From Acidobacteriaceae bacterium (GTDB taxonomy: Bacteria > Acidobacteriota > Terriglobia > Terriglobales > Acidobacteriaceae): DNA of 64,000 nucleotides. A program made the position numbers and the translations under genes. The notes under the pieces are model-generated. The model worked only from the letters and a program-made list of their open reading frames with translations. It had not been told where the DNA came from and did not search any database. Positions 39,166 to 51,387 of this stretch are shown piece by piece; position 1 is the stretch's first letter, and every line of letters starts with the position of its first letter. The stretch lies in contig JAOAPN010000004.1 of assembly GCA_025462885.1 (NCBI GenBank), positions 1 through 64,000 on the forward strand. The letters run 5' to 3'.

Positions 39166-41154
39166 ATGGGCCGCATCCGCATTTTGTCCGACGTCGTGGC
39201 GAACCAGATCGCCGCCGGTGAAGTCGTCGAGCGACCAGCCTCCGTCGTCAAGGAACTGCTCGAAAATTCCCTCGACGCCGGGGCGACCCGCATCCGCATC
39301 GAGGTCGAAGCCGGCGGACGCAAGCTCATCCGCATCATCGACAACGGCCACGGCATGGTCCAGGACGACGCCCTCCTCGCCTTCGAGCGCCATGCCACCT
39401 CCAAGCTCCGCACCTCCGACGACCTCCTCTCCATCGCCACCCTCGGCTTCCGCGGAGAAGCCCTCCCCTCGATTGCATCCGTCTCGCGCCTGACCCTCGA
39501 AACGCGTGCCCCCGAAGACGAGTCGGGAACCCTGGTCGAGATCGCCGGCGGCAACATCCTCCGCGTCGAGCCAGCCGGTCTTCCCGCCGGAACCACCATC
39601 ACCATCCGCGACCTCTTTTTCAACACCCCGGCCCGCCGCAAATTCCTAAAGTCCGAGCAGACTGAGCTCTCGCACATCGCCGCCCTCGTCACCCACTACG
39701 CTCTCGCGCATCCCACCCGCCACTTCGAACTGCACTCCGCGACGCAAGCCCTGCTCGTTGCCCCGGCTGTGGCCAATGCGGGCGACCGTCTCTTCCAGAT
39801 CTTTGGCCGCGACACCTTCCACCTCATGCTCCCGACCGCCGCCGAGATGGACTTCACCCGCGCCGGACTCCCCGAGCCCCCGCCCTGGAAGCGCGAGGCC
39901 GACTACGAACCCGCCGACCCCGGCTATCTCCGCATCACCGGCTTCGTCTCCAAGCCCGAGCTGCAGAAGCTCAATCGCAACTCCGTCTACGTCTTCGTCA
40001 ACCAGCGCCTCATCCGTGACAAGCTCATCCTCCACGCGCTCTCCGAGGCCTACCGCAACATTCTGCCTCCCACCAGCTTTCCCGTCGTCCTGCTCTTTCT
40101 CGAGATGCCACCGCAAGAGGTCGACGTCAACGTTCATCCTGCCAAGACCGAGGTCCGTTTCCGCCAGCCCAGCTTCGTCCACGACTTCGTCCGCGACACC
40201 GTCCGTACCACTCTCATTCAGGCGCGCCCCGCCGCCAGCTTCGTCAACGCCCTGTCTGGTGCCACCAACTCTGCGGCATCCTCCCTCCTGATCGACGTCA
40301 GTCCGCTTCCCGGCGCTCCGGATGATCCCATCTTCGACCCCACTCGGAAGCCGGACACTTTCTTCACCTCGGAGAACGATCCCTCGGCGCAGCAGTACCA
40401 GTCCGACTCTGCCCCGTTCCATCTCGCCGCGCCCATGGTTCCCGCCTCCCCCGGCCGCCTCGCCTTCAACGGCCACAGCATTTCGGTGGGCTATCCCGAC
40501 GCTAACGCCGATCCCTCTCTCGAAGATACGGTTCCAACTACCGGCAGCCCGCACGTCGCCGACACCCTCAACGCCCTCTCCACCCTGAAGCCGTTAGGCC
40601 AGCTCCGCGACTCCTTCATCCTCGCCGTCAACGAAGAAGGCCTCTGGATTATCGACCAGCACGTCGCCCACGAGCGCGTCCTCTTCGAGAAGGTCCTGCG
40701 CGAGCGCGACACCGAACAGGTCCAGCGCCAGCGTCTGCTGATGCCTCTGCTCATCGACCTCCTGCCGGCCCAAATGGTCGTCTTTGCCCGGCTCGCCGAC
40801 GAACTCGACCGCAACGGCTTTGAAGCCGAACCCTTTGGCCCCCGCACCCTCGCCATCAAAGCCGCCCCCGTAGGCCTCGAAGGCAGGGAACTCGAGATCA
40901 TGATCGAGGAACTTCTTGCCCTCCCCGACCCCACCCGCCAGACTGAGAACGCCGACACCCGCCGCCGCCGCATTGCAGCCAGCATCGCCTGCCACGCCGC
41001 CATCAAAATCAACCAGCCCCTCGACACCCAGAAGATCGCTTGGCTCCTCGACGCTCTCTCCAAGACCGAGCACCCGACTGCCTGCCCCCACGGCCGCCCC
41101 ATCGCTCTCCGCTACTCGCACAAAGACATCGCCAAAGCATTCCAACGCACCTAG
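39166..41154 (+). CDS. mutL: DNA mismatch repair endonuclease MutL
   Basis: The 662-residue protein couples MutS mismatch recognition to strand removal. The N-terminal GHKL ATPase has LLENSLDAGA, IDNGHGM and GFRGEALPSIASV; a proline-rich linker spans about 350-465. The C-terminal domain carries the endonuclease motif DQHxAHE-x4-E at about 497-508 (third A replaced by V) and CPHGRP at 640-645, so it is the nicking type found in bacteria without MutH. It is transcribed alone after a terminator. Confidence 0.96.
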   Translation: MGRIRILSDVVANQIAAGEVVERPASVVKELLENSLDAGATRIRIEVEAGGRKLIRIIDNGHGMVQDDALLAFERHATSKLRTSDDLLSIATLGFRGEALPSIASVSRLTLETRAPEDESGTLVEIAGGNILRVEPAGLPAGTTITIRDLFFNTPARRKFLKSEQTELSHIAALVTHYALAHPTRHFELHSATQALLVAPAVANAGDRLFQIFGRDTFHLMLPTAAEMDFTRAGLPEPPPWKREADYEPADPGYLRITGFVSKPELQKLNRNSVYVFVNQRLIRDKLILHALSEAYRNILPPTSFPVVLLFLEMPPQEVDVNVHPAKTEVRFRQPSFVHDFVRDTVRTTLIQARPAASFVNALSGATNSAASSLLIDVSPLPGAPDDPIFDPTRKPDTFFTSENDPSAQQYQSDSAPFHLAAPMVPASPGRLAFNGHSISVGYPDANADPSLEDTVPTTGSPHVADTLNALSTLKPLGQLRDSFILAVNEEGLWIIDQHVAHERVLFEKVLRERDTEQVQRQRLLMPLLIDLLPAQMVVFARLADELDRNGFEAEPFGPRTLAIKAAPVGLEGRELEIMIEELLALPDPTRQTENADTRRRRIAASIACHAAIKINQPLDTQKIAWLLDALSKTEHPTACPHGRPIALRYSHKDIAKAFQRT

Positions 41155-41404
41155 GCCAATGCCTCTGTTTTCGACTCGCACTCAATGGTCATCCTGAGCA
41201 AAGCGAGGGACCTGTTGTGCGCCTCAACAGGCAATACGCCTATCGCTGGTACCTAATACCGCACAACAAAATTGTCACTCGGCCAAAAAGCGATTGATAT
41301 GCGACTGAATCTGTCCTATAAAGAAATAGGACAGATTCAGTCGTAGTTCTATTCTTCTGATCCTGTAGTCCTATCCAGCGTTACCAACGTCAAGATCGGT
41401 GCTT
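41155..41404. other. intergenic region with dispersed repeat fragment
   Basis: 250 bp without a gene. GGTCATCCTGAGCAAAGCGAG at about 41188 resembles the CATTCTGAGCGCAGCGAAG segment at 45728, a fragment of a dispersed repeat. A perfect inverted repeat follows at 41302-41343. Confidence 0.5.
41302..41343. repeat. perfect 18-bp inverted repeat
   Basis: Arms 41302-41319 and 41326-41343 are exact reverse complements around AAAGAA. It lies 62 bp before the EF-hand operon. It could terminate mutL transcription or regulate the operon; no T-run follows. Confidence 0.6.
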
Positions 41405-42244
41405 ATGAACAATAAAACTCTGGTGGCTCTCTGCCTGCTCGCCTCTGCCTCACTCCATGCACAAGCTCCTCGCGGCCAAGGAGGTCCCGGTGGTCCCGGC
41501 GGCCCGCCTCAGCCGCCCCGCCCAACCGTAGTCGTGCTCGACACCGACAAGGACGGTACGATCTCCGCAGTCGAGATTCAGGCTGCCTCCAAATCCCTTC
41601 TGATCCTGGACAAGAACGGGGACGGCCAGTTGACTGCCGACGAATTCAGCGCACGCATGCCGATGAATGAGCCACCTTCTTCCGACGAGTTGCTGAACCG
41701 TCTGATGGCGTTCGACAAGAACGGCGACGGTATCCTGACCAAAGACGAAGTGCCGGAGCGGATGCAGCCTCTTTTTGATCGCGGGGACACGAACAAGGAC
41801 GGCAAGCTGACCGCAGAGGAGATCAAAGCCCTCTCGGGCGCGCAGCCCACCCCGGCCGGACCGCGCATTCGTCCCAACTCCACGCGTCAGGACCCGATTC
41901 TGCGGGCGCTCGATACCGATCAGGACGCAGTGATCTCCGCAGCCGAGATTGCGGCTGCTCCCACGACCCTGAAGACCCTGGACAAGAACGGCGACGGGCA
42001 ATTGACCGCGAACGAGTTCAATCCACCCCCGGCCACCCCCGCCTCGCGCGTCGAACACATGCTCGAGGAATGGGACACCAATAAAGACGGCAAGCTCTCC
42101 AAGGCGGAGTGCCCCGACCGCCTTCAGCCGCAGTTCGAATCCCTCGATAAGAACAGCGACGGCTTCCTCACCCCAGACGAACTCACCCTCTACTTCGCCA
42201 ACATGCCCACGCCCGGCGCGCGCCAGGAAGGACCTCGCCCGTAA
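41405..42244 (+). CDS. secreted protein with eight EF-hand loops
   Basis: The 279-residue protein has a signal peptide (MNNKTLVALCLLASASLHAQA), a Gly/Pro linker and eight EF-hand-type calcium loops, e.g. DTDKDGTISAVE, DKNGDGQLTADE, DKNGDGILTKDE, DTNKDGKLTAEE, then a second block DTDQDAVISAAE, DKNGDGQLTANE, DTNKDGKLSKAE, DKNSDGFLTPDE. The two blocks of four match each other in order, so the protein arose by internal duplication. The fifth loop (DQDA) has lost a glycine and may bind weakly. ATG at 41405 starts the signal peptide. The stop overlaps the next ATG by one base, so it heads a three-gene operon. Confidence 0.92.
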   Translation: MNNKTLVALCLLASASLHAQAPRGQGGPGGPGGPPQPPRPTVVVLDTDKDGTISAVEIQAASKSLLILDKNGDGQLTADEFSARMPMNEPPSSDELLNRLMAFDKNGDGILTKDEVPERMQPLFDRGDTNKDGKLTAEEIKALSGAQPTPAGPRIRPNSTRQDPILRALDTDQDAVISAAEIAAAPTTLKTLDKNGDGQLTANEFNPPPATPASRVEHMLEEWDTNKDGKLSKAECPDRLQPQFESLDKNSDGFLTPDELTLYFANMPTPGARQEGPRP

Positions 42245-43788
42245 TGACGACTCGCCTTCGATCCTCAGCCTCCAGATCCTTCGCCTCCATCGGTCTTTTG
42301 ATTGCATCCCTCAGCGCAGCCCCCTGCGTCTTTGCCGCAACTCCTCAGCAGCACCAGTATGTCTTCCACCACGAGAACGTCCTCGGCACTTCGCTGGAGC
42401 TGAAGATTCGCGCTACGTCTCCTGATGCTGCCAGCCGCGCCGAGTCCGGCGTCCTCGCCGAGATCGACCGCGAAAACCGCATCCTCAGCGCCTGGCAGCC
42501 CGATAGCGAGTTCTCCCGCTGGGCCGGCACGCAGGGAACCGCCGAGCATGTCTCGCCCGAGCTGTTCCAGGTCCTCAGCCTCTTCGACCTGTGGCGTGAG
42601 AAGACCGGCGGCGCCCTCGATGCTTCCGCCGAAGTCGCCGTCCGCGCGTGGAAGAAGGCGGCCGCTGAAAACCGCGCTCCCAATCCAACCGAGCTGCAGA
42701 CTGCTGTCGTGCAGATGCAGCAGCCGCACTGGAGACTCGACGCCGAGCACCAGACCGCGACCCATCTCGATCGCTCTCCGATTGCGCTAAACTCCTTCGC
42801 CAAAAGCTACATCGCCGGCAACGCCGCCAATGCAGCCCTCGCAAACGCACCTGAAGTTAGCGGCGTCCTGCTCAACGTAGGCGGCGACATCGTCCTCCGC
42901 GGCTCCATCGCCAGCAGCATCGACATCGCCAACCCGCAGGCCGACGCCGAGAACGACGTTCCCATGGACCGCGTCACCCTCAGCAACCGCGCCATCGCCA
43001 CCAGCGGAGGCTACCGTCGTGGCGTCGATATCAGCGGAGCGCACTTCTCGCACATCGTCGATCCCCGCACCGCGCTTCCGGTCAATCACGTCCTCAGCTC
43101 GACCGTCATCGCGCCAGATCCGTCGGAGGCCGGAGCCCTCTCGACTGCCTTCTCCGTGATGACCCCAGGCGAGAGTCAGCGCCTCGCCGCCCAGCTCCGC
43201 AACGTCGACTACATGATCCTCCTCAAGGACGGCACCCGCATCACCAGCCGCGGATGGAGCGCCCTTGAACTCCCGCGCCTCCAAACGGCAAGTTACGTCC
43301 CGCAGGCTAAATCCGCCGCTCCCGCAGTTGCCGGTGCGATGGACGTTACCATCTCCCTCGAACTGGCCCGCATGGACAACCCCCGCTACCGCCGTCCCTT
43401 CGTAGCCGTCTGGGTCGAAGATAAGGACCGCTTCCCGGTCCGCACTCTCGCGCTCTGGTTCGATAAGACTCGCTGGCTCCCCGATCTCAAGACCTGGTAC
43501 CGCGACGACCGCGTCCGTTCCATGGTCGAAGGCTCGGACGTTACCACCACCGTCTCCAGCGCCACCCGTCCCCCGGGCAAGTACACCCTCCGCTGGGACG
43601 GCAAGGATCAGGCCGGCAAGCCGGTGAAGCCCGGTAAGTACACCATCAGCATCGAAGCCGCGCGCGAGCACGGAACCTACCAGGTCGTCCGGCAGGAGAT
43701 CGACTTCGACGGCAAAACCCCCAGCCAGTTCACCATGCCCGGGAATACCGAGATAGCGGCGGCCAGCGTTGACTACCGTAAGAGATAA
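42244..43788 (+). CDS. ApbE FMN transferase fused to DUF2271
   Basis: The 514-residue exported protein starts with a signal peptide (about 1-32). Residues about 40-340 are an ApbE FAD:protein FMN transferase, which attaches FMN to threonines of extracytosolic redox proteins; seen are LGTSLELKI, LNVGGDIVLRG, AIATSGGYRR and HIVDPRTALPV with the Mg-binding region. Residues about 360-514 are a DUF2271 domain (VAVWVEDKDRFPVRTLALWFDKTRWLPDLKTWYR and PGKYTLRWDGKDQAGKPVKPGKYTI). It follows the EF-hand gene with an ATGA-type overlap and precedes a PepSY membrane protein, so the three genes likely act in one extracytosolic flavin pathway. Confidence 0.9.
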   Translation: MTTRLRSSASRSFASIGLLIASLSAAPCVFAATPQQHQYVFHHENVLGTSLELKIRATSPDAASRAESGVLAEIDRENRILSAWQPDSEFSRWAGTQGTAEHVSPELFQVLSLFDLWREKTGGALDASAEVAVRAWKKAAAENRAPNPTELQTAVVQMQQPHWRLDAEHQTATHLDRSPIALNSFAKSYIAGNAANAALANAPEVSGVLLNVGGDIVLRGSIASSIDIANPQADAENDVPMDRVTLSNRAIATSGGYRRGVDISGAHFSHIVDPRTALPVNHVLSSTVIAPDPSEAGALSTAFSVMTPGESQRLAAQLRNVDYMILLKDGTRITSRGWSALELPRLQTASYVPQAKSAAPAVAGAMDVTISLELARMDNPRYRRPFVAVWVEDKDRFPVRTLALWFDKTRWLPDLKTWYRDDRVRSMVEGSDVTTTVSSATRPPGKYTLRWDGKDQAGKPVKPGKYTISIEAAREHGTYQVVRQEIDFDGKTPSQFTMPGNTEIAAASVDYRKR

Positions 43789-44431
43789 AGAAGGCCTGCA
43801 AGAAAAATCCGTTCCTACACCCGCCAGCGCGAAGAAGCCGATGTCGTGGCGCGTGGCGCTGCGCCGCCGCACCGCCATCGTCTCGCGCTGGCTCCACATC
43901 TACCTATCGATGGTCAGCTTCGCGATCGTGCTGTTCTTTTCGGTCACGGGCTACACGCTGAATCACACCGACTGGTTCGCCGCGAAGGAGCAGACCGTTC
44001 GCTCCGTAGGCACCATGCCGCAGCAATGGCTCAAGGAGCCGGCGAAGCTGGAGATCGTCGAACAGCTTCGCAATCAGCACAAGATTCATGGAGCCATGAG
44101 CGACTTCCGCGTGGAAGACGCGCAGCTCTCCGTCTCCTTCAAGGGTCCCGGCTACACCGCAGATAGCTTCATCGACCGCGAAACCGGCAAGTACGAGGTC
44201 ATCGAAACCCGCAACGGCTTCGTCGCCGTCATCAACGACCTGCACAAGGGCCGCGACACCGGCAAGGTTTGGTCCGGCGTGATCGATGCCTCTGCTCTTC
44301 TGCTGGTGCTGGTCTCCTTCACTGGACTGGTCTTGATCTTCTTCGTCTACAAGCGGCGCACGGCTGGTCTTATCCTCGCAGCGTTTGGCGGGATCTTTTG
44401 CGTCGCGCTCTACAAAATCTTCGTTCCCTGA
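43769..44431 (+). CDS. PepSY-associated membrane protein
   Basis: The 220-residue protein has the layout of PepSY-associated TM proteins: a first span after RWLHIYLSM (VSFAIVLFFSVTGYTLNH), a large external PepSY-like loop (about 70-160, with HKIHGAMSDFRVED and KYEVIETRNGFVAVINDLHKGRDTG), a second span with SALLLVLVSFTGLVLIFF and a short third one. Histidines in the loop ends (LHIYL, NHT, DLHKG) could bind haem, as in related b-type cytochrome-like PepSY proteins; that is inference. The TTG start at 43769 overlaps the ApbE gene; ATG at 43841 is an alternative that keeps all spans. Confidence 0.83.
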   Translation: MTTVRDKEGLQEKSVPTPASAKKPMSWRVALRRRTAIVSRWLHIYLSMVSFAIVLFFSVTGYTLNHTDWFAAKEQTVRSVGTMPQQWLKEPAKLEIVEQLRNQHKIHGAMSDFRVEDAQLSVSFKGPGYTADSFIDRETGKYEVIETRNGFVAVINDLHKGRDTGKVWSGVIDASALLLVLVSFTGLVLIFFVYKRRTAGLILAAFGGIFCVALYKIFVP

Positions 44432-44448
44432 TTGAAAGGGCCCTGATT

Positions 44449-44579
44449 GGAAGGGCACCCCTTCAGGTGTGCCACAACCGCGCTCTTTGATTTATTTCTT
44501 TTACCGGTTCGCTCCTGGCGAACCGGTAAAAGAATAGAAGTGTGAACTTCTTTCGGCATGGCTAAAGCCATGCCCTTCC
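44449..44579. repeat. three-hairpin dispersed element, copy B
   Basis: 131 bp with the ends GGAAGGGC (44449-44456) and GCCCTTCC (44572-44579), a first hairpin with one mismatch, a central 17-bp stem (44496-44512 with 44518-44534) and a last hairpin (44555-44574). The central stem differs in sequence from copies A and C but keeps pairing, a sign that structure is maintained. The rest of the 319-bp gap (44432-44750) holds no gene. Confidence 0.83.
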
Positions 44580-44750
44580 GCAATCCTTCGAATTTATTCG
44601 AACCAACGAAAATGGATTGTCGGTATACGGGTCTATCGGTGTGCCTTGTTCCCCCAGTACCTGCAAGAGGAAAATTAGCGGTACCTCTCGCGTCATCTTC
44701 CGCAACCCAGTAGGATGGGTGCGCAGCAAAATAGCGCTTCTGGAGACCCC

Positions 44751-45632
44751 ATGCCATCGACCCGCCGAGACTTCCTCAAGACTTCAGCCGCCGCCCTTAC
44801 CCTGGCCGCGAACGCCCGTCTACTGCACGCCGCGCCGCCGAAGCTGCCTATCGCGATCCAACTCTACTCGGTCCGCGAAGACCTGGCCAAGTCCTTTGAG
44901 CCTACCCTCAAGACGCTTTCCTCTCTCGGCTATCAGGAAGTGGAAGCCGCCGGCTTCTTCAACCACTCCGCCGCAGAGGTCAAGACCGCGTTCAAGAACG
45001 CCAACCTCCGCTGCCCCAGCGCCCATTACAACTTCCAGCTCATGAGCACCCAGCTTGACCAGATCATCGAGTTTGGCCACGAACTGGGTTTGCAGTACAT
45101 CGTCTGCGCCAGCCCCGGCAAGGCTCCCGCCAACGCCCAGACCAAGGGACCCCACACCCTCGACGACTGGAAGTTCAACGCCGAAAACTTCAATCGCTTC
45201 GGCGAAAAGATCAAGGCCGCCGGCATGACCTTCGCCTATCACAATCACTACGTCGAATTTCACCCACTCCCCGACGGCAGCATCCCGATGGATCAGCTCA
45301 TGACCCTCACCGATCCCGCCAAGGTGCACTTCGAGATGGACTGCGGCTGGGTGGTTGTCGGAGGCGGCAACCCCGTCGAATTCCTCAAGAAGCACGGCCC
45401 CCGCATCTGCATGCTGCACATCAAGGACTTCGTCGCCGCGCATCCCAGCGCCGACGGTAAGACTCCCACTCCCACCGAACTCGGCCGCGGCGTCATCGAC
45501 TACCGCCCCATCTTCCAGGCCGCCAACCCCGCCTACATCAAGCACGCGTTCGTCGAGCAGGAGGGTTACGACATCCCCCAGGACCAGTCCCTCAAGGTTG
45601 ACGCAGACTACCTCAAAGCCCTCTACAAATAA
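44751..45632 (+). CDS. Tat-exported sugar phosphate isomerase/epimerase-like protein
   Basis: The 293-residue protein begins with a twin-arginine signal (MPSTRRDFLKTSAAALTLAANARLLHA) and continues as a xylose-isomerase-like TIM barrel: IAIQLYSVREDL, GYQEVEAAGFF, YIVCASPGKAP, TFAYHNHYVEF, FEMDCGWVVVGG and MLHIKDF. These supply the metal-binding E, D and H positions of the AP-endonuclease-2 superfamily. The substrate is unknown; relatives act on sugars or inositols. ATG at 44751 follows GGAG and matches the Tat motif; the frame opens 36 bp earlier. Confidence 0.9.
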   Translation: MPSTRRDFLKTSAAALTLAANARLLHAAPPKLPIAIQLYSVREDLAKSFEPTLKTLSSLGYQEVEAAGFFNHSAAEVKTAFKNANLRCPSAHYNFQLMSTQLDQIIEFGHELGLQYIVCASPGKAPANAQTKGPHTLDDWKFNAENFNRFGEKIKAAGMTFAYHNHYVEFHPLPDGSIPMDQLMTLTDPAKVHFEMDCGWVVVGGGNPVEFLKKHGPRICMLHIKDFVAAHPSADGKTPTPTELGRGVIDYRPIFQAANPAYIKHAFVEQEGYDIPQDQSLKVDADYLKALYK

Positions 45633-45747
45633 GCTCGCCCAACCTAAGGCGAAACAGGGAACACCTGCACCCTGTTTCGCTCACGCTCTCGTGCTCTCGT
45701 GCTTTAGAGCACCTGTAAACTTCCGTCATTCTGAGCGCAGCGAAGAA

Positions 45748-45870
45748 CCCCCGTATTCTTCAAATAGAGCGGACCAGCCCATAGCGCGGTACCCGTCAGC
45801 CCCCCGCATTTTGCTAAATGGAGCGGACCAGCTCGTAGCGCGGTATCCGTCAAAACCCCCGTATTTCGTC
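45748..45870. repeat. imperfect 53-55 bp tandem repeat
   Basis: Units begin at 45748, 45801 and 45856 (third truncated) with CCCCCGYATT and contain GAGCGGACCAGC and TAGCGCGGTAYCCGTCA. A CATTCTGAGCGCAGCGAAG segment just upstream belongs to a dispersed repeat. The 285-bp gap 45633-45917 has no gene. Confidence 0.65.
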
Positions 45871-45917
45871 TTTGCTATCGCACTTCTTCTTGCTCTATTC
45901 CATCTGCGAAAATTGCT

Positions 45918-46850
45918 CTACCCCTTCGCCGCGGCATAGTACTTATCCAGATCAATGACGTGCCGTCCGTAAGCGAACCCCACCAGGTCCCACACCGAAA
46001 GCTCCGCCGCGAACGCTTTACCGCTCGCCCCCTGCAGAAGATATTTCGGTGCAAGCACCATGTTCTTCGCGGCCCGCCCGATCATGTATCGCGGCACACC
46101 GAGCAAATAAGGCACTGGCTCACGAACCTCCCGCGCCAGGTACCCCTGCGACACCGCCCGCCAATACGCCCACTTGCGGTGATAGCTCCGCGTCAGCCGC
46201 GACTCCGGAATGTAATGCAGAATCAGCAGATCAGGAACGTGCAGCCCATGGATCTTAGCCGCCTTCAGCCGTCCATAAAACTCTGCATCTTCCTCCGAGA
46301 GCAGTCCCTTCCCGCTCCGGCCCAGCTTCGCGGAATAGAGTCCCACCTTGTCGAAGACGCTCCGCCGCATGACTGCATTGCCACCCATCAGATTTCCCTG
46401 GAATGCAGCATCCATAGGACCGCGTTGCTTGGCTGTGACGATCCCGATCGCTGCGTTGTATCCCGGCGGAAGCCAATTCGGCGAAGCTGCCGACCAGTTC
46501 GGAAGATACGGTCCACCGATAAACTGCACACTCGGATCTTGAAACTCGCGGTACACCACCTCGATCCAGTCTTTGGCCACCTCTTCATCGTCATCGATGA
46601 AGCCGATCAAGTCGCCCGTCCCTGCCGCAATGCCCCCATTGCGCGCAGACGACAGCCCCTGCATGCGCTCCCGCACATACTGCACCGGATACTCCCGCGC
46701 CACCTGCTCGGTGTCGTCGGAGCTGTTATTGTCCACCACGATGATCTGCACCTCCAGGCCATCCGGTACAGTCGCCGCGAGCAGGCTCGCAATGGTCTTT
46801 CGCAGCAATCCACTCCGGTTATACGTCGGCACCACAATATCCAGCTTCAA
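45918..46850 (-). CDS. family 2 glycosyltransferase
   Basis: The 310-residue protein has a GT-A fold: nucleotide-binding start LDIVVPTYNRSGLLRKTIASLL, VDNNSSDDT, the metal motif FIDDDEE (DxD type, near 85-91) and GGNAVMRRSVFDKVG, with EEDAEFYGRLK as the base region. It most likely transfers a sugar to a cell-surface glycan or lipid. The C-terminal part (about 235-300) has hydrophobic helices and may attach to the membrane. No other glycan genes lie beside it. Confidence 0.9.
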   Translation of the reverse strand: MKLDIVVPTYNRSGLLRKTIASLLAATVPDGLEVQIIVVDNNSSDDTEQVAREYPVQYVRERMQGLSSARNGGIAAGTGDLIGFIDDDEEVAKDWIEVVYREFQDPSVQFIGGPYLPNWSAASPNWLPPGYNAAIGIVTAKQRGPMDAAFQGNLMGGNAVMRRSVFDKVGLYSAKLGRSGKGLLSEEDAEFYGRLKAAKIHGLHVPDLLILHYIPESRLTRSYHRKWAYWRAVSQGYLAREVREPVPYLLGVPRYMIGRAAKNMVLAPKYLLQGASGKAFAAELSVWDLVGFAYGRHVIDLDKYYAAAKG

Positions 46851-46963: not shown

Positions 46964-47125
46964 AAACATCCACCAGGGAGAAGCGCGCGATGCTCCCCCA
47001 AAAGCCTCCCCAGCGGAAGCGTACGCGATGCTCCCCGAAAGCATCCCCAGCGGAGGAATGCGCGATGCCCCCCAAAAACATCCACCGGGAGAAGCACGCG
47101 ATGCCCCCAAAAACATCCACCACGG
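46964..47125. repeat. 37-bp tandem repeat, about 4.4 units
   Basis: Units start at 46964, 47001, 47038, 47076 and 47111 (lengths 37, 37, 38, 35, partial). Each begins AAACATCC or AAAGCMTCC, has CCRGCGGRRG/CCAGGGAGAAG in the middle and ends CGCGATGCYCCCC. Units are adjacent without unique spacers. Confidence 0.85.
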
Positions 47126-47207
47126 AAGGGCATACCTTCAGGTATGCCAAAAAAAGCCACGCCGAAGGCGTTTCCGCTCTGCCGAAGGCAAGCCTCTCAT
47201 CTTTCAC
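47124..47207. repeat. short hairpin element, copy 1
   Basis: 84 bp that starts GGAAGGGC with the same first hairpin as the three-hairpin elements, then small hairpins CGCC-GAA-GGCG (47160-47170) and TGCC-GAA-GGCA (47180-47190), ending CCTCTCATCTTTCAC. A second copy is at 50099-50183. Confidence 0.8.
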
Positions 47208-47442
47208 CGCCTCATCCCTGCCCGTATGCCACTGGGAAGCACAAATTTAGGAATCGGCCTTCTATTTCCGGCACTTGCCTCACTTTGCGGTATCCTAGTT
47301 ACTGGCAGGAAGGTGCAGCGCACCTCGAAGCGTCCGTCAGTCCGCGCTCCCCTCGAATACCGAAGATCAAAAGGTCCCGGATAGAAGCCATCAGTTCGGG
47401 ATTACCGTAGCTTTAGAAGTACCGCCATTCAACCCAGGTTGA

Positions 47443-49899
47443 ATGGTTGCTGTCGTGCGTACAACTACCACCCAGCAGGAAGGCAACACCTTGAGTAACC
47501 CAAGCACTCCCTCGGCCGATCAGCTCGCCGCCTCCCGTCTCAAACAATGGCACCAGGATGGCGAAGCCCTCCTCACCTTCGAGAACCTTCGCAGCTGGAT
47601 CAACGCCGCCGGACTCGCGCTCTTCGCCCCTCGCGCCGCGCAGATCCCCTCCCCCGCGCCCTCCATGGTGGAAGCCGTCCTCGGCGCACCCAACGCTACC
47701 CCCTCCCTCGCCGACACCGAACAAGCCCGTACCCTCCTCTCCCGCCTCATCGCGGAAGGCGCAGTCGTGCCGCTCAACCTGCTTGGCAACCCCGCCGGCG
47801 TAGGCACCGACACCCCGGACTTCATCGTCGCCACCGCAATCCTCCCCTACATCTTTACTCTCCGCGGCGACAAGTCCTGGAAGCTTCCCCCCGAGACCAG
47901 CGGAGCCAGCAAGGTCTCTCCCCTCGCTCTCGCCACCTACACCCTGCTCACCGAGCGCGCCAAAGATCCGATCCCCGGCCTCTCCGCTTACGACCTCGCC
48001 ACCCAGCTCGGCAAGGAAGTTACTGAGAACGCCGTTCTCCGTGGCCTGACCGAACTCTGGCAGCATCTCCGCGTCCTGCCCATTCCGCAGGAAGGCGCAG
48101 CAACCCTCTGGGAGCTGACGACCACCCGTTTCACCAAGCTGCTCAAGGCCGGTTCCAACGCCGGACAGCCCACCGCACTCTCCGCGCTCGTCACCCTCTA
48201 TCTCGGCCAGTCAATCGTCGCGACTGAAGAAGAGATCGAGACCTTCCTCTCTCCGTTGGCCGCACGCTCGCGCATCCGCGACGTCGTTCATGCCCTGATG
48301 TCCGCGCGTCAGCTTGAGACTATCGCCGTCGAAGGCCGTACCGTCCTGCACGTCAACGGCGATCTTCCCGCGTTCCTCGCTCCAGCGCCAGATCCGAATG
48401 CGGAGGCCGTGCCCGTCGACGACATCGGCGCCCTCGTCGTCACCACCGAAGGCGACGCGCCCACCTCGCAGTTCATCTCCGCAGACGGCCAGCCCAGCAT
48501 CAGGAAGTTCGTTTCTGCCCCCCGCAAGATCGGCACCGGCTTCGTCACCAAGCCCGGCTATGGCAAGGGAATTCGCAAGCCCTTTGCGGATCGGAACGCC
48601 GAACCCACCCGCCGTCCCTTCGCCCGCGAGTCCAACCGCGCCGACCGCCCCAGCTTCACCAAGCCCTGGGCCGAGGAGCAGGCCGACCGCCTCGCCGGAA
48701 CCATCGTCCCCTCCGCAACTCCCCAGGACTCGGGATCCAGCGAGAGCGGGGAAGCCACCGCTCGCCCAGCCTTCGAGAAGCGTCCGTCCTACGGAGACAG
48801 GCGTCCCAGCTACGGCAGCAAACCCAGCTACGGCAGCAAACCCAGTTACGGCAGCAAACCCAGCTACGGCAGCAAACCGGCGTACGGAAGTAAGCCATCC
48901 TTCGGCAGCCGCCCCAGCTTTGGTGGTGACCGTGGCGGCAGCCGTCCCAGCTTCGGCTCCCGTCCCAGCTTCGGCGGCGACCGCGGCAGTTCGCGCCCCA
49001 GCTTCGGCAGCGACCGTGGCGACTCCCGTCCACCGCGCCGCGAGTTCACCCCGCGTCCCGCGAGCGATACCGGCAACCCCGGCGACTTCGCTCCGCGCAA
49101 GACCTTCTCCAAGCCCGGAACCTTCGGCCGCAAGCGCGAAGGCGGCTTCTCGCCGCGTCCATCCTTCGGTGGCGACCGCGGCGACTCCCGTCCGCCGCGT
49201 CGCGAGTTCACCCCTCGCCCCGGCTCGGAAGGCCGCGACTCGCGTCCGTCCTTCGGAGGTCGTCCTGACCGTCCGTCGTTCAGCGGTCGCCCGGATCGCC
49301 CGTCCTTCGGGGCCCGCTCCGACCGTCCTTCCTTCGGAGGCCCCCGTGAGGGAGGCTTCAACAATCGCCCCAGCTATCCGCGTCGTGACGCAGACTCCGG
49401 TTCCGGCGAGTCCGCTGGCCCGCGCTTCCGCAAGTTCGACGCTCCCCGTGGCGATCGCCCCGCCCGTCCTTTCAACGCAGACCGTGGAGCCCGCGCTGAC
49501 TCCGGCGGCTACGCAGGAAAGCCCAGCGGAGGCTACGCCGGTAAGACGGGTGGCAGCTACGCCGGGAAATCCAGTGGTGGCTACGCAGGAAAATCCTCCA
49601 GCTACGGAGACAGGCCCAGCGGCGGTTACGCCGGGAAGTCTTCCAGCTTTGGCGACAAAAAGCCCTACGGCCAGTCCAGCGGCGGCTACGCCGGAAAAAG
49701 CAGCGGAGGCTACGCCGGAAAATCCGGTGGCAGCTACGCGGGTAAACCAAGCGGTGGCGGCTACGCAGGAAAATCGGCCGGCGGATTCCCCGGCAAACCA
49801 GCCGGAACCTTCGACAAGTTTAAGGGCAACAAGAAGCCCTTCGGTAACCGCCCACCCGCACGCAAATGGAAGCCGGACGAAGCCAAATCCGGAGAATAA
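47443..49899 (+). CDS. winged-helix-like protein with long S/Y/G/R low-complexity tail
   Basis: I do not recognise a named family for this 818-residue protein. Residues about 20-345 look globular and helical, with two winged-helix-like stretches (PLALATYTLLTERAKDPIPGLSAYDLATQLG and ALVTLYLGQSIVATEEEIETFLSPLAARSRIRDVVHALMSARQLETI). From about 360 to 818 the chain is low complexity: five SYGSKP units (456-485), then RPSFGGDRG and REFTPRP blocks, GRPDRPSFG units, and a GGYAGKS block (687 to about 795), ending in a basic KKPFGNRPPARKWKP. Such S/Y/G and RG-rich tails are typical of RNA-binding, condensate-forming proteins. TTG at 47491, with AGGAAGG 7 bp upstream, is an alternative start. A hairpin follows the stop. 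Confidence 0.8.
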   Translation: MVAVVRTTTTQQEGNTLSNPSTPSADQLAASRLKQWHQDGEALLTFENLRSWINAAGLALFAPRAAQIPSPAPSMVEAVLGAPNATPSLADTEQARTLLSRLIAEGAVVPLNLLGNPAGVGTDTPDFIVATAILPYIFTLRGDKSWKLPPETSGASKVSPLALATYTLLTERAKDPIPGLSAYDLATQLGKEVTENAVLRGLTELWQHLRVLPIPQEGAATLWELTTTRFTKLLKAGSNAGQPTALSALVTLYLGQSIVATEEEIETFLSPLAARSRIRDVVHALMSARQLETIAVEGRTVLHVNGDLPAFLAPAPDPNAEAVPVDDIGALVVTTEGDAPTSQFISADGQPSIRKFVSAPRKIGTGFVTKPGYGKGIRKPFADRNAEPTRRPFARESNRADRPSFTKPWAEEQADRLAGTIVPSATPQDSGSSESGEATARPAFEKRPSYGDRRPSYGSKPSYGSKPSYGSKPSYGSKPAYGSKPSFGSRPSFGGDRGGSRPSFGSRPSFGGDRGSSRPSFGSDRGDSRPPRREFTPRPASDTGNPGDFAPRKTFSKPGTFGRKREGGFSPRPSFGGDRGDSRPPRREFTPRPGSEGRDSRPSFGGRPDRPSFSGRPDRPSFGARSDRPSFGGPREGGFNNRPSYPRRDADSGSGESAGPRFRKFDAPRGDRPARPFNADRGARADSGGYAGKPSGGYAGKTGGSYAGKSSGGYAGKSSSYGDRPSGGYAGKSSSFGDKKPYGQSSGGYAGKSSGGYAGKSGGSYAGKPSGGGYAGKSAGGFPGKPAGTFDKFKGNKKPFGNRPPARKWKPDEAKSGE
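48808..48897 (+). repeat. 18-bp coding tandem repeat, five units
   Basis: The unit AGCTACGGCAGCAAACCC repeats from 48808, 48826, 48844 and 48862 almost without change, with a diverged fifth copy at 48880. It encodes SYGSKP. The near-identity at silent sites points to recent expansion. Confidence 0.9.
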
Positions 49900-49923: not shown

Positions 49924-49949
49924 TCAGGCGTGCCGTAGGGCACGCCTGA
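49924..49949 (+). terminator. hairpin after the low-complexity protein gene
   Basis: An 11-bp stem (49924-49934 with 49939-49949) with loop GTAG begins 25 bp after the stop, followed by ACTGTTTGT. Confidence 0.65.
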
Positions 49950-50592
49950 ACTGTTTGTCCTATTCGTCCCACACTTCGAGTCTGCTACGCCATCCATACA
50001 TCTCTCCTGTCTTGTTTTCCGCCTACGGTCCAGAGCGAAGCGAAGGGACCAGAGGCCGTTCTAGGACGTTCTTCTTCGCCCCCAAAAAACCACCTCACGG
50101 AAGGGCATACCTTCAGGTATGCCATAACAAGCCTCGCCGCAGGCGGACTCCATTCTGCCGAAGGCAAGCCTCTCTTCTTTCACAACCCCTTCCTTACCTC
50201 AGAAGTTCCTGGAAGCTCCAGTCCTGAACAGGAGTCCCGAGACTCAAAACCAAAAACCCGCAAATTCCTGTCAAGCCCCCAAACCTCCAAAAAGTCCTCC
50301 GCTAAATCACTAAGCCAAACAAAAGAAGCAGCTTACACCCCAGGTAATAAATAAAAAAAAGTAGCATTTTACCCCACCTCAATCTTCTACAATAGAAACA
50401 GCAAGAAAACACGTCACAAAGCAAAGATCAGAGCCTGCCCGGCAAGCCCGTATCTCCTTTAGAATGACGATTTTGCTCGTAACTCCTTTGTTTGGAATAT
50501 TTTAGCGGGAACCACCTCCGGTACTCTTTCAAAAGAAGCGATTTACGCGCAGGTAACCCCGGGGGAGGGACCCCGCCTTTCAAGGAGCAGGG
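49950..50592. other. 643-bp gap before cmk
   Basis: No gene is supported. It holds the second short hairpin element (50099-50183), a dispersed-repeat-like GGTCCAGAGCGAAGCGAAGG at about 50029, and an A/C-rich stretch (50260-50440) with AATAAATAAAAAAAAG. A promoter for cmk should lie in the AT-rich part near 50480-50510, but no box pair is clear. Confidence 0.55.
50099..50183. repeat. short hairpin element, copy 2
   Basis: 85 bp parallel to 47124-47207: GGAAGGGC start, first hairpin, CGCC-GCA-GGCG (50135-50145), TGCC-GAA-GGCA (50156-50166) and CCTCTCTTCTTTCAC end. The preceding CCCCCAAAAAACCACCTCAC also resembles the last tandem unit before copy 1. Confidence 0.8.
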
Positions 50593-51387
50593 ATGCAGCA
50601 GCAGGAAACGACCAAGCGCCAACGTCCCGTCATCGCCATCGACGGCCCAGCGGGAGCCGGAAAAAGCACTCTCGCCGCCCACCTCGCGCGCCGCTTCGGT
50701 TTTCTGAACCTCGAGACCGGTGCCATGTACCGCGCTCTCGCTCTCAAAGCCATCGAACACGACCTCGCGTTCGATGAAGAAACGCCGCTTCTGGAGTTGG
50801 CCCACTACACCAGCATCGCGCTCGAATCGCAATCCGAAGGCAACCGGGTTCTGCTGGACGGAACCGACGTCTCCCGCCGTATCCGCGAGCAGGACGTCAC
50901 TTCCGGCGCTTCTCAAATCTCGGTCCACCCCGAACTCCGCGCCTGGATGGTCGATCTGCAGCGCAAGATGGGGGCCGCCGGTGGGGTCGTCATGGAAGGC
51001 CGCGACATCGGCACCGCCGTATTTCCCGACGCTGAGGTCAAAATCTTTCTTGATGCAGCTCCGGAAGTTCGCGGCAATCGACGTTTTCGCCAGGTAGCTC
51101 CCACGCCCGGGCCTCATAACAGCGAGCCTGCAAACTCCGATCGTCAGGCCCCTGACCCGGAGACTGCAGAAGAGCATCGGCTTGCCGAAGAAGCCATTAT
51201 CAAGGAGATGAAGGAGCGCGACTACCGGGATCGCCATCGCGCCCAGTCGCCTCTTCAACCTGCACCGGATGCCGTGATTCTCGATTCCACCGCCATGACG
51301 CTCCAGGAAGTGCTTGCAAAAGCCGAAGAGATCGTCCGCTCCCATCTCCCTCCTCCTCCCTCCGATCCAGGGCTTATTGCACAATAA
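50593..51387 (+). CDS. cmk: cytidylate kinase
   Basis: The 264-residue enzyme phosphorylates CMP and dCMP. It has the P-loop GPAGAGKST (about 18-26), NLETGAMYRALALKAI, LDGTDVSRRIR, VMEGRDIGTAVFPDAEVKIFLDA and the late RDYRDRHRAQSPLQPAPDAVILDST. It is about 35 residues longer than E. coli Cmk, partly from a Pro/Asn-rich stretch (PTPGPHNSEPANSDRQ) in the lid region and a proline tail. The ATG follows AAGGAG. Confidence 0.95.
   Translation: MQQQETTKRQRPVIAIDGPAGAGKSTLAAHLARRFGFLNLETGAMYRALALKAIEHDLAFDEETPLLELAHYTSIALESQSEGNRVLLDGTDVSRRIREQDVTSGASQISVHPELRAWMVDLQRKMGAAGGVVMEGRDIGTAVFPDAEVKIFLDAAPEVRGNRRFRQVAPTPGPHNSEPANSDRQAPDPETAEEHRLAEEAIIKEMKERDYRDRHRAQSPLQPAPDAVILDSTAMTLQEVLAKAEEIVRSHLPPPPSDPGLIAQ

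Follow-up and report, generated by a model that had tools for sequence, protein, structure and literature searches.

The winged-helix DNA glycosylases of the HTH_42 family (PF06224), among them AlkZ and AlkX (YcaQ), carry the catalytic motif (Q/H)-aliphatic-(D/Q) (PMC9040887), and AlkX is built of three winged helices and a C-terminal β-sheet subdomain with a DNA-binding loop (PMC13303869). AlkZ-like winged helices, in this case without QxQ, also form the C-terminal domain of Lhr (PMC10953399), and a long charged disordered region on a bacterial nucleic-acid-binding protein has been described for Bacteroides Rho (PMC13269538). Here we describe an open reading frame (ORF) at positions 47443-49899 of a 64,000-nucleotide stretch (the window) of an Acidobacteriaceae genome (GenBank assembly GCA_025462885.1, contig JAOAPN010000004.1), in which an AlkZ-related head is joined to a long repeat tail. 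The family was recognised as Acidobacteriaceae by the named relatives Granulicella, Edaphobacter and Acidipila.

The ORF runs on the forward strand for 818 codons from the ATG at 47443 without interruption, as the initial annotation had it, and encodes an ordered-type head of about the first 300 residues followed by a repeat tail of about 500 residues (502 when counted from residue 317). The gene is real, conserved and no artefact. The explanation that we favour, with confidence and doubt in about equal measure, is that this core protein of the family is a mutL-linked, probably non-glycosylase, winged-helix nucleic-acid-binding protein, in which a polycationic aromatic tail would serve multivalent binding of DNA or RNA and perhaps condensation.

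A winged-helix head related to AlkZ and AlkX

The initial annotation had described the head as winged-helix-like, which was supported by the comparisons given below, and had known of no named family for the protein, which was not. Residues 181-319 matched the Pfam AlkZ-like family PF06224 above its cut-off (28.2 bits against 25.9), the match ending at profile position 239 of 329. When 73 heads from the genus and the family were compared with Pfam at E ≤ 1, AlkZ-rel (PF24741) was matched by 31 and PF06224 by 28; for the window protein alone, AlkZ-rel was not among the Pfam matches. In profile-profile comparison the head matched AlkZ-rel over 210 columns (probability 98.4, E 8.6e-15; the AlkZ-rel profile was made from 27 of 30 fetched phylum proteins, the three longest being dropped) and full-length AlkX/AlkZ-like proteins over the winged-helix part, as far as AlkX residue 275 of 405 (probability 73, E 3e-5). 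AlkZ-rel in turn matched AlkX with the N-terminal part included (probability 82, E 1.1e-5). On these profile comparisons the head is distantly related to the AlkZ/AlkX (HTH_42) winged-helix DNA glycosylases, with AlkZ-rel as its nearest Pfam family.

Alignment of the heads with AlkX, made as a chain through AlkZ-rel, placed the conserved G-aromatic-V-Q-x-D of AlkX on a GLALFA-type sequence. In the column that corresponds to the catalytic residue, the 73 heads had L (54), F (9), A (5), I (2), T (2) or S (1) and in no case Q or H, and no column of the alignment had Q or H in at least 80% of them; six columns, at head positions 101, 121, 182, 242, 244 and 258, were at least 90% D/E. The C-terminal DNA-binding subdomain of AlkX was not found either, the profile matches stopping before it, and 49 untailed proteins of the family end 3-66 residues past the head. 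Because both the QxD/QxQ motif and the C-terminal DNA-binding domain are missing, the head most likely binds DNA or a DNA-bound partner instead of excising bases.

Structure prediction of the head against winged-helix glycosylases, a check proposed in the initial annotation, gave a better model for the second and third winged helices (WH2-WH3) than for the head as a whole. AlphaFold2 (AF2) modelled a WH2-WH3 construct as two winged-helix-like units with a predicted local distance difference test score (pLDDT) of 68.3, and the best Foldseek match of this model was the AlkX-DNA structure 9zd6 (E 2.2e-4, template-modelling score (TM) 0.35, root-mean-square deviation 12.2). With VIA-align the same model retrieved single winged helices of many kinds, with Z up to 9.9 over 64-69 residues, and AlkX was absent among the best 50 matches. 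As far as the model can be relied on, these searches bear out the presence of winged helices and agree with AlkX, but point to nothing further.

Searches of PDB sequences with phmmer and with profiles gave no match, nor did NCBIfam, PADLOC or PHROGs with the whole protein; the 73 heads gave weak, scattered NCBIfam matches only (best E 0.015). ScpB, a winged-helix protein that neighbours cmk in other bacteria, was considered as an identity and rejected, as PF04079 was not among the Pfam matches up to E 10 and the ScpB of this genome lies elsewhere (C8, E 3.3e-43). A whole-genome PF06224 search of the organism's own genome did not list the ORF. The only match listed there, at C10:51166-51708 (L081), fell in a 1644-aa frame of Lhr-like length, and no stand-alone AlkX or AlkZ was listed. 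In two genomes of the genus g48 (G091 and G155, loci L188 and L190) the head matched in two pieces about 85-100 residues apart, which indicates an insertion within the head, unlike G187 and G206 of the same genus, where the head matched in one piece.

A basic, disordered-type repeat tail

The tail is encoded by tandem DNA repeats with periods of 18, 24, 27 and 51-54 bp (Table 1). The near-identity of the 18-bp units, noticed from the start, was confirmed (4.1 copies, 96% match), and the predicted variation in tail length was found among relatives: across the genus, 32 complete loci (with one genome represented twice) had tails of 371-532 aa with 0-7 [ST][YF]G[SNG][KR]P units. At the Acidipila rosea locus (L040) a run of unknown bases within the tail repeats makes the tail length unsure. 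Over the 502 residues, G, S, P, R, K, D and E made up 72% and F plus Y 10%. The initial annotation had called the tail RG-rich, but RP (25), KP (15), FG (12) and YG (9) dipeptides prevailed over RG (6), with a single RGG. The tail is RP/KP/[FY]G-rich and lacks the RG/RGG repeats of RG/RGG condensate proteins; it resembles these, as a disordered-type tail with evenly spaced aromatics, in composition and spacing alone.

In a charge/hydropathy analysis the head fell on the ordered side; the disordered side began at about residue 361 and took in the remaining ~458 aa, and all 87 tails of at least 200 aa (duplicates included) were of disordered-side composition and net positive. The even spacing claimed for tyrosine and phenylalanine was also seen, F/Y/W residues in the window tail being more regularly placed than in shuffled sequences (coefficient of variation 0.53 against 0.91 ± 0.11, z −3.5); among 75 complete tails of at least 290 aa (two genomes counted twice), 53 had z < −2, 22 were not significant and none exceeded 2. 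Tandem repetition itself yields evenness, however, and could explain much of this signal. The islands RERRPF, RPPRR and RKFDAPR were conserved at 75% or more per letter in 31 genus tails, with the less conserved blocks RktFSkpgtFgRKRegF and tFdKFkgnkKPFg near the end. A search of the own genome with the tail at E ≤ 0.01 returned only the tail itself, and a strict RPSFGxRP-type DNA pattern had one genome match, this gene, which is weak evidence, given that most units of the gene itself escape the pattern. Neither head nor tail matched plasmid records.

The history of the tail was followed on a quick IQ-TREE tree of 126 heads, with five sister-family rows as untailed outgroup; 17 genus loci (thinned or duplicate), partial heads and L173, L174, L178, L186, L251 and L252 were omitted, and four rows with tails of 76-139 aa were scored as tailed. 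Tailed rows formed a clade of 68 (support 99*), a group of three genomes, L231-L233 (96*), and the single row L077, the last two nested among untailed rows. Parsimony required three gains of the tail, against 14 losses for a single origin, at least nine of them on supported branches; the tree contains long branches, that of L077 included. On this tree, the tail appears to have arisen repeatedly. Four loci (L056, L057, L196 and L199) have tails of just 76-139 aa within the tailed clade, a possible case of tail loss. The tails of L231-L233, of the ERKPFGERKSFGDRKPFG type, resemble those of the distant L030 and L043, with best scores of 171, 170 and 102 bits (for L233 the best was L043) against shuffled maxima of 26-29, a likeness that may reflect either transfer or convergence. 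The best cross-lineage score of the L077 tail was 42 bits (shuffled maximum 27).

In 11 of 12 hand-picked pairs the tail had a dN/dS of 0.07-0.30, with the caveat that alignment within repeats is uncertain; the twelfth was not estimable, dS being saturated, and the heads gave 0.05-0.13. Ratios this low mean that purifying selection acts on the tail in the tested pairs. This, together with its apparent repeated gain, makes a wholly accidental tail unlikely.

Conserved linkage to mutL and cmk

The head was present in 143 of 150 family genomes (109 of 110 of high quality) and in 76 of 79 genera, as well as in 49 of 61 relatives, including all 14 sister-family genomes at 23-33% identity. Searched with the family profile, 35 of 297 phylum genomes contained it, 31 of these being from the same family. 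For the gene neighbourhoods, a hand-picked set of 106 out of the 143 family matches, drawn from both size classes, was used together with 12 of the 14 sister-family genomes and the genus loci; the counts omit the window, the duplicates L034, L036 and L186 and the distant L251 and L252, take as tailed any locus with a tail of at least 70 aa or a frame cut by a contig end, and cover loci with at least 900 bp of sequence on the side concerned.

A mutL gene lay on the same strand within 800 bp upstream in 67 of 85 tailed, 45 of 46 untailed and 7 of 12 sister-family loci. Only about 1.5 kb of upstream sequence is available for 13 of the 18 tailed loci without a nearby mutL, and in eight loci mutL and the gene touch or overlap if the nearest upstream start codon is taken as the start. 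Downstream, cmk was found at 54 of 56 tailed and 38 of 46 untailed loci and at none of 11 sister-family loci. Because mutL occurs near tailed, untailed and sister-family loci alike, its link with the gene seems, on this distribution, to be older than the tail and older than the cmk link. The linkage is hard to see in the window, as five genes separate mutL from the ORF there; some of these are shared by L031 and L037. The MutL encoded in the window carries DQHVAHERVLFE, close to the endonuclease motif DQHA(X)2E(X)4E, and may be of the nicking, MutH-less type.

Translation probably starts at TTG 47491 rather than at the ATG, giving a product of about 802 aa, since a Shine-Dalgarno sequence (identical letters in eight of the nine other genus relatives shown) precedes this in-frame TTG and relatives L002 and L005 have an in-frame stop upstream of the equivalent position. 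Copies of an intergenic repeat with the palindrome GGGCATACCTTCAGGTATGCC, 82-86% identical, lie on both sides of the gene (47103-47222 and 50078-50198); the repeat had 29 matches in the genome, many to a core of about 30 bp only, and is REP-like (repetitive extragenic palindrome).

Table 1. Positions of the gene, its parts and its neighbours in the window.
Feature	Position	Strand	Evidence or remark
Gene from likely TTG start	47491..49899	+	Sequence, relatives; ORF itself from ATG 47443
Shine-Dalgarno AGGAAGG	47477..47483	+	Sequence; 8/9 other genus relatives
Head domain, AlkZ-related	47515..48393	+	Family profile 417.6 bits; PF06224 28.2 bits
N-terminal head part, aligning with AlkX WH1 via AlkZ-rel; L, F, A, I, T or S in place of catalytic Q	47515..47874	+	
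Two winged helices aligning with AlkX WH2 and WH3	47875..48393	+	AF2 pLDDT 68.3; Foldseek top match 9zd6
Basic tail, 502 aa, net charge +42	48391..49896	+	Translation, composition
18-bp tandem repeat coding SYGSKP	48805..48878	+	Repeat search
51-bp repeat coding RPSFGGDRG-type units	48900..49009	+	Repeat search
27-bp repeat coding RPSFGGRPD-type units	49243..49340	+	Repeat search
Conserved tail block RKFDAPR	49429..49449	+	Every letter conserved in ≥81% of 31 genus tails
24-bp repeat coding GGYAGKSS, first block	49507..49596	+	Repeat search
24-bp repeat coding GGYAGKSS, second block	49677..49775	+	Repeat search
Perfect 11-bp hairpin, terminator-like, directly 3′ of stop	49924..49949	+	Sequence
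mutL, usual upstream neighbour	39166..41154	+	Pfam MutL_C 2.3e-35, DNA_mis_repair 2.6e-34; 6.3 kb from ORF
Five unrelated genes between mutL and ORF: EF-hand protein, ApbE+DUF2271, PepSY_TM-like, AP_endonuc_2 TIM barrel, glycosyltransferase 2 (minus strand)	41399..46850		
cmk, usual downstream neighbour	50593..51387	+	Pfam Cytidylate_kin 5.1e-66

A possible role in DNA repair

The protein shares with AlkX and AlkZ the winged-helix architecture, a sequence match over WH2-WH3 and the best Foldseek match, but it differs from them in lacking the catalytic Q/H and the domain with the DNA-binding loop, in a head that is not positively charged, in its linkage to mutL and in that it may bear a long disordered tail. 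AlkZ-rel, its closest profile, likewise stops after the last winged helix, but 29 of the 30 sampled AlkZ-rel proteins were without a tail (the exception, L104, had been translated in a wrong frame), and none lay beside mutL or cmk. Lhr is a large helicase, whereas the window ORF has no helicase domain among its Pfam matches. The mean net charge was −6.0 for tailed heads (n = 80) and −1.4 for untailed heads (n = 49), against +6.4 for AlkZ-rel and +13.6 for AlkX-type proteins, while whole tailed proteins reached +43.6. Tailed proteins carry in the tail, then, positive charge of the kind that AlkX carries on its fold.

DNA binding, a partnership with MutL, condensation and a role in mismatch repair are what we infer for this protein. 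The head would dock on DNA or on a DNA-bound repair partner, without base excision, and in the large tailed clade and the two further lineages a polycationic [KR]P/[FY]G-rich tail of 200-600 residues would have been added where AlkX has its C-terminal domain. Through numerous weak contacts, made by charged and aromatic residues, such a tail could retain nucleic acid. It may also cluster the protein, perhaps together with MutL, in assemblies rich in nucleic acid when DNA is repaired by the mismatch pathway or otherwise. The mutL linkage makes DNA repair, rather than RNA metabolism, our best guess for the process, and this operon context is a more informative clue than the condensate idea of the initial annotation, plausible as the latter is.

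Several results weigh against this explanation. The AF2 model of the whole head, made from 11 sequences, was poor, its N-terminal part included (pLDDT 44.8), and the Foldseek geometry of WH2-WH3 on AlkX was weak, ESCRT-II and RNA polymerase III winged-helix proteins matching almost as well. Untailed proteins, with their own short C-termini, have a mean charge of +3.0, so that the family manages without the charge of the tail, and the charge comparison takes no account of shared ancestry and is sensitive to the head boundary set by the profile. No mutL was found nearby in 5 of 12 sister-family loci, in the window itself 6.3 kb lie between mutL and the ORF, and the AlkZ-rel genes of the phylum's other families were beside neither mutL nor cmk at any of 30 loci (flanks of about 1.5 kb). 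Furthermore, mutL and cmk are both housekeeping genes, so that adjacency to them may mean co-expression only, and tails of this type are also borne by RNA-acting bacterial proteins.

A possible, if somewhat unlikely, alternative is that the head and its basic F/Y tail act on rRNA, mRNA or a degradosome-like body, the linkage to mutL and cmk reflecting a shared housekeeping operon. The basic G/S/P/F/Y chemistry of the tail does resemble that of RNA-dependent condensing tails, and cmk adjoins the gene at nearly all tailed loci. In the disordered region of Bacteroides Rho, short charged motifs are described as driving RNA-dependent condensation (PMC13269538); that region is split into KE-rich, BCD and PLD subdomains, whereas RP/KP and F/Y-G units follow winged helices here, where condensation would be a conjecture. 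Yet the head belongs by homology to a DNA-repair family, it is the mutL linkage and not the cmk linkage that extends to the sister family, and no RNA-binding domain was among the Pfam and NCBIfam matches.

We think it doubtful that the protein is a working DNA glycosylase, assisted by its tail, in which another catalytic residue has taken over, the situation described for the AlkZ-like region of Lhr. Catalysis could survive the loss of the motif, since Escherichia coli Lhr, although without QxQ, has been reported as a uracil-DNA glycosylase that needs Asp1536 (PMC10953399), and the six nearly invariant D/E columns and the Lhr-length frame found alone in the own-genome PF06224 search would fit such an enzyme. 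Against it stand two findings: no head has Q or H in the column of the catalytic residue, nor is any other column conserved as Q/H, and the C-terminal domain with its DNA-binding loop is missing. That repeat expansion added the tail neutrally to a conserved protein of which the head alone matters is very unlikely, for although the 49 untailed loci, the tandem DNA repeats with their length changes and the four short tails within the tailed clade would agree with it, the low dN/dS, conserved blocks such as RKFDAPR, the uniformly positive and disordered-side composition and the repeated appearance on the tree do not.

No paper on this protein or on a mutL-adjacent AlkZ-related gene was found in the open-licence PMC literature, in queries that did not include the names AlkZ-rel or PF24741. 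Taken to its furthest, the DNA-repair explanation would make the protein an undescribed mismatch-repair accessory factor of the Acidobacteriaceae, a glycosylase-fold DNA-binding partner of MutL whose independently gained polycationic F/Y-G tails concentrate repair proteins on DNA in a condensate-like manner; in this full form we consider it unlikely. If the protein does work with MutL, it would add a conserved mismatch-repair partner in a major soil phylum. A natural experiment is offered by the apparent attachment, more than once, of similar tails to one kind of head: with tailed and untailed orthologues at the same gene position, the contribution of a disordered sticker-spacer tail to a bacterial nucleic-acid protein could be tested directly.

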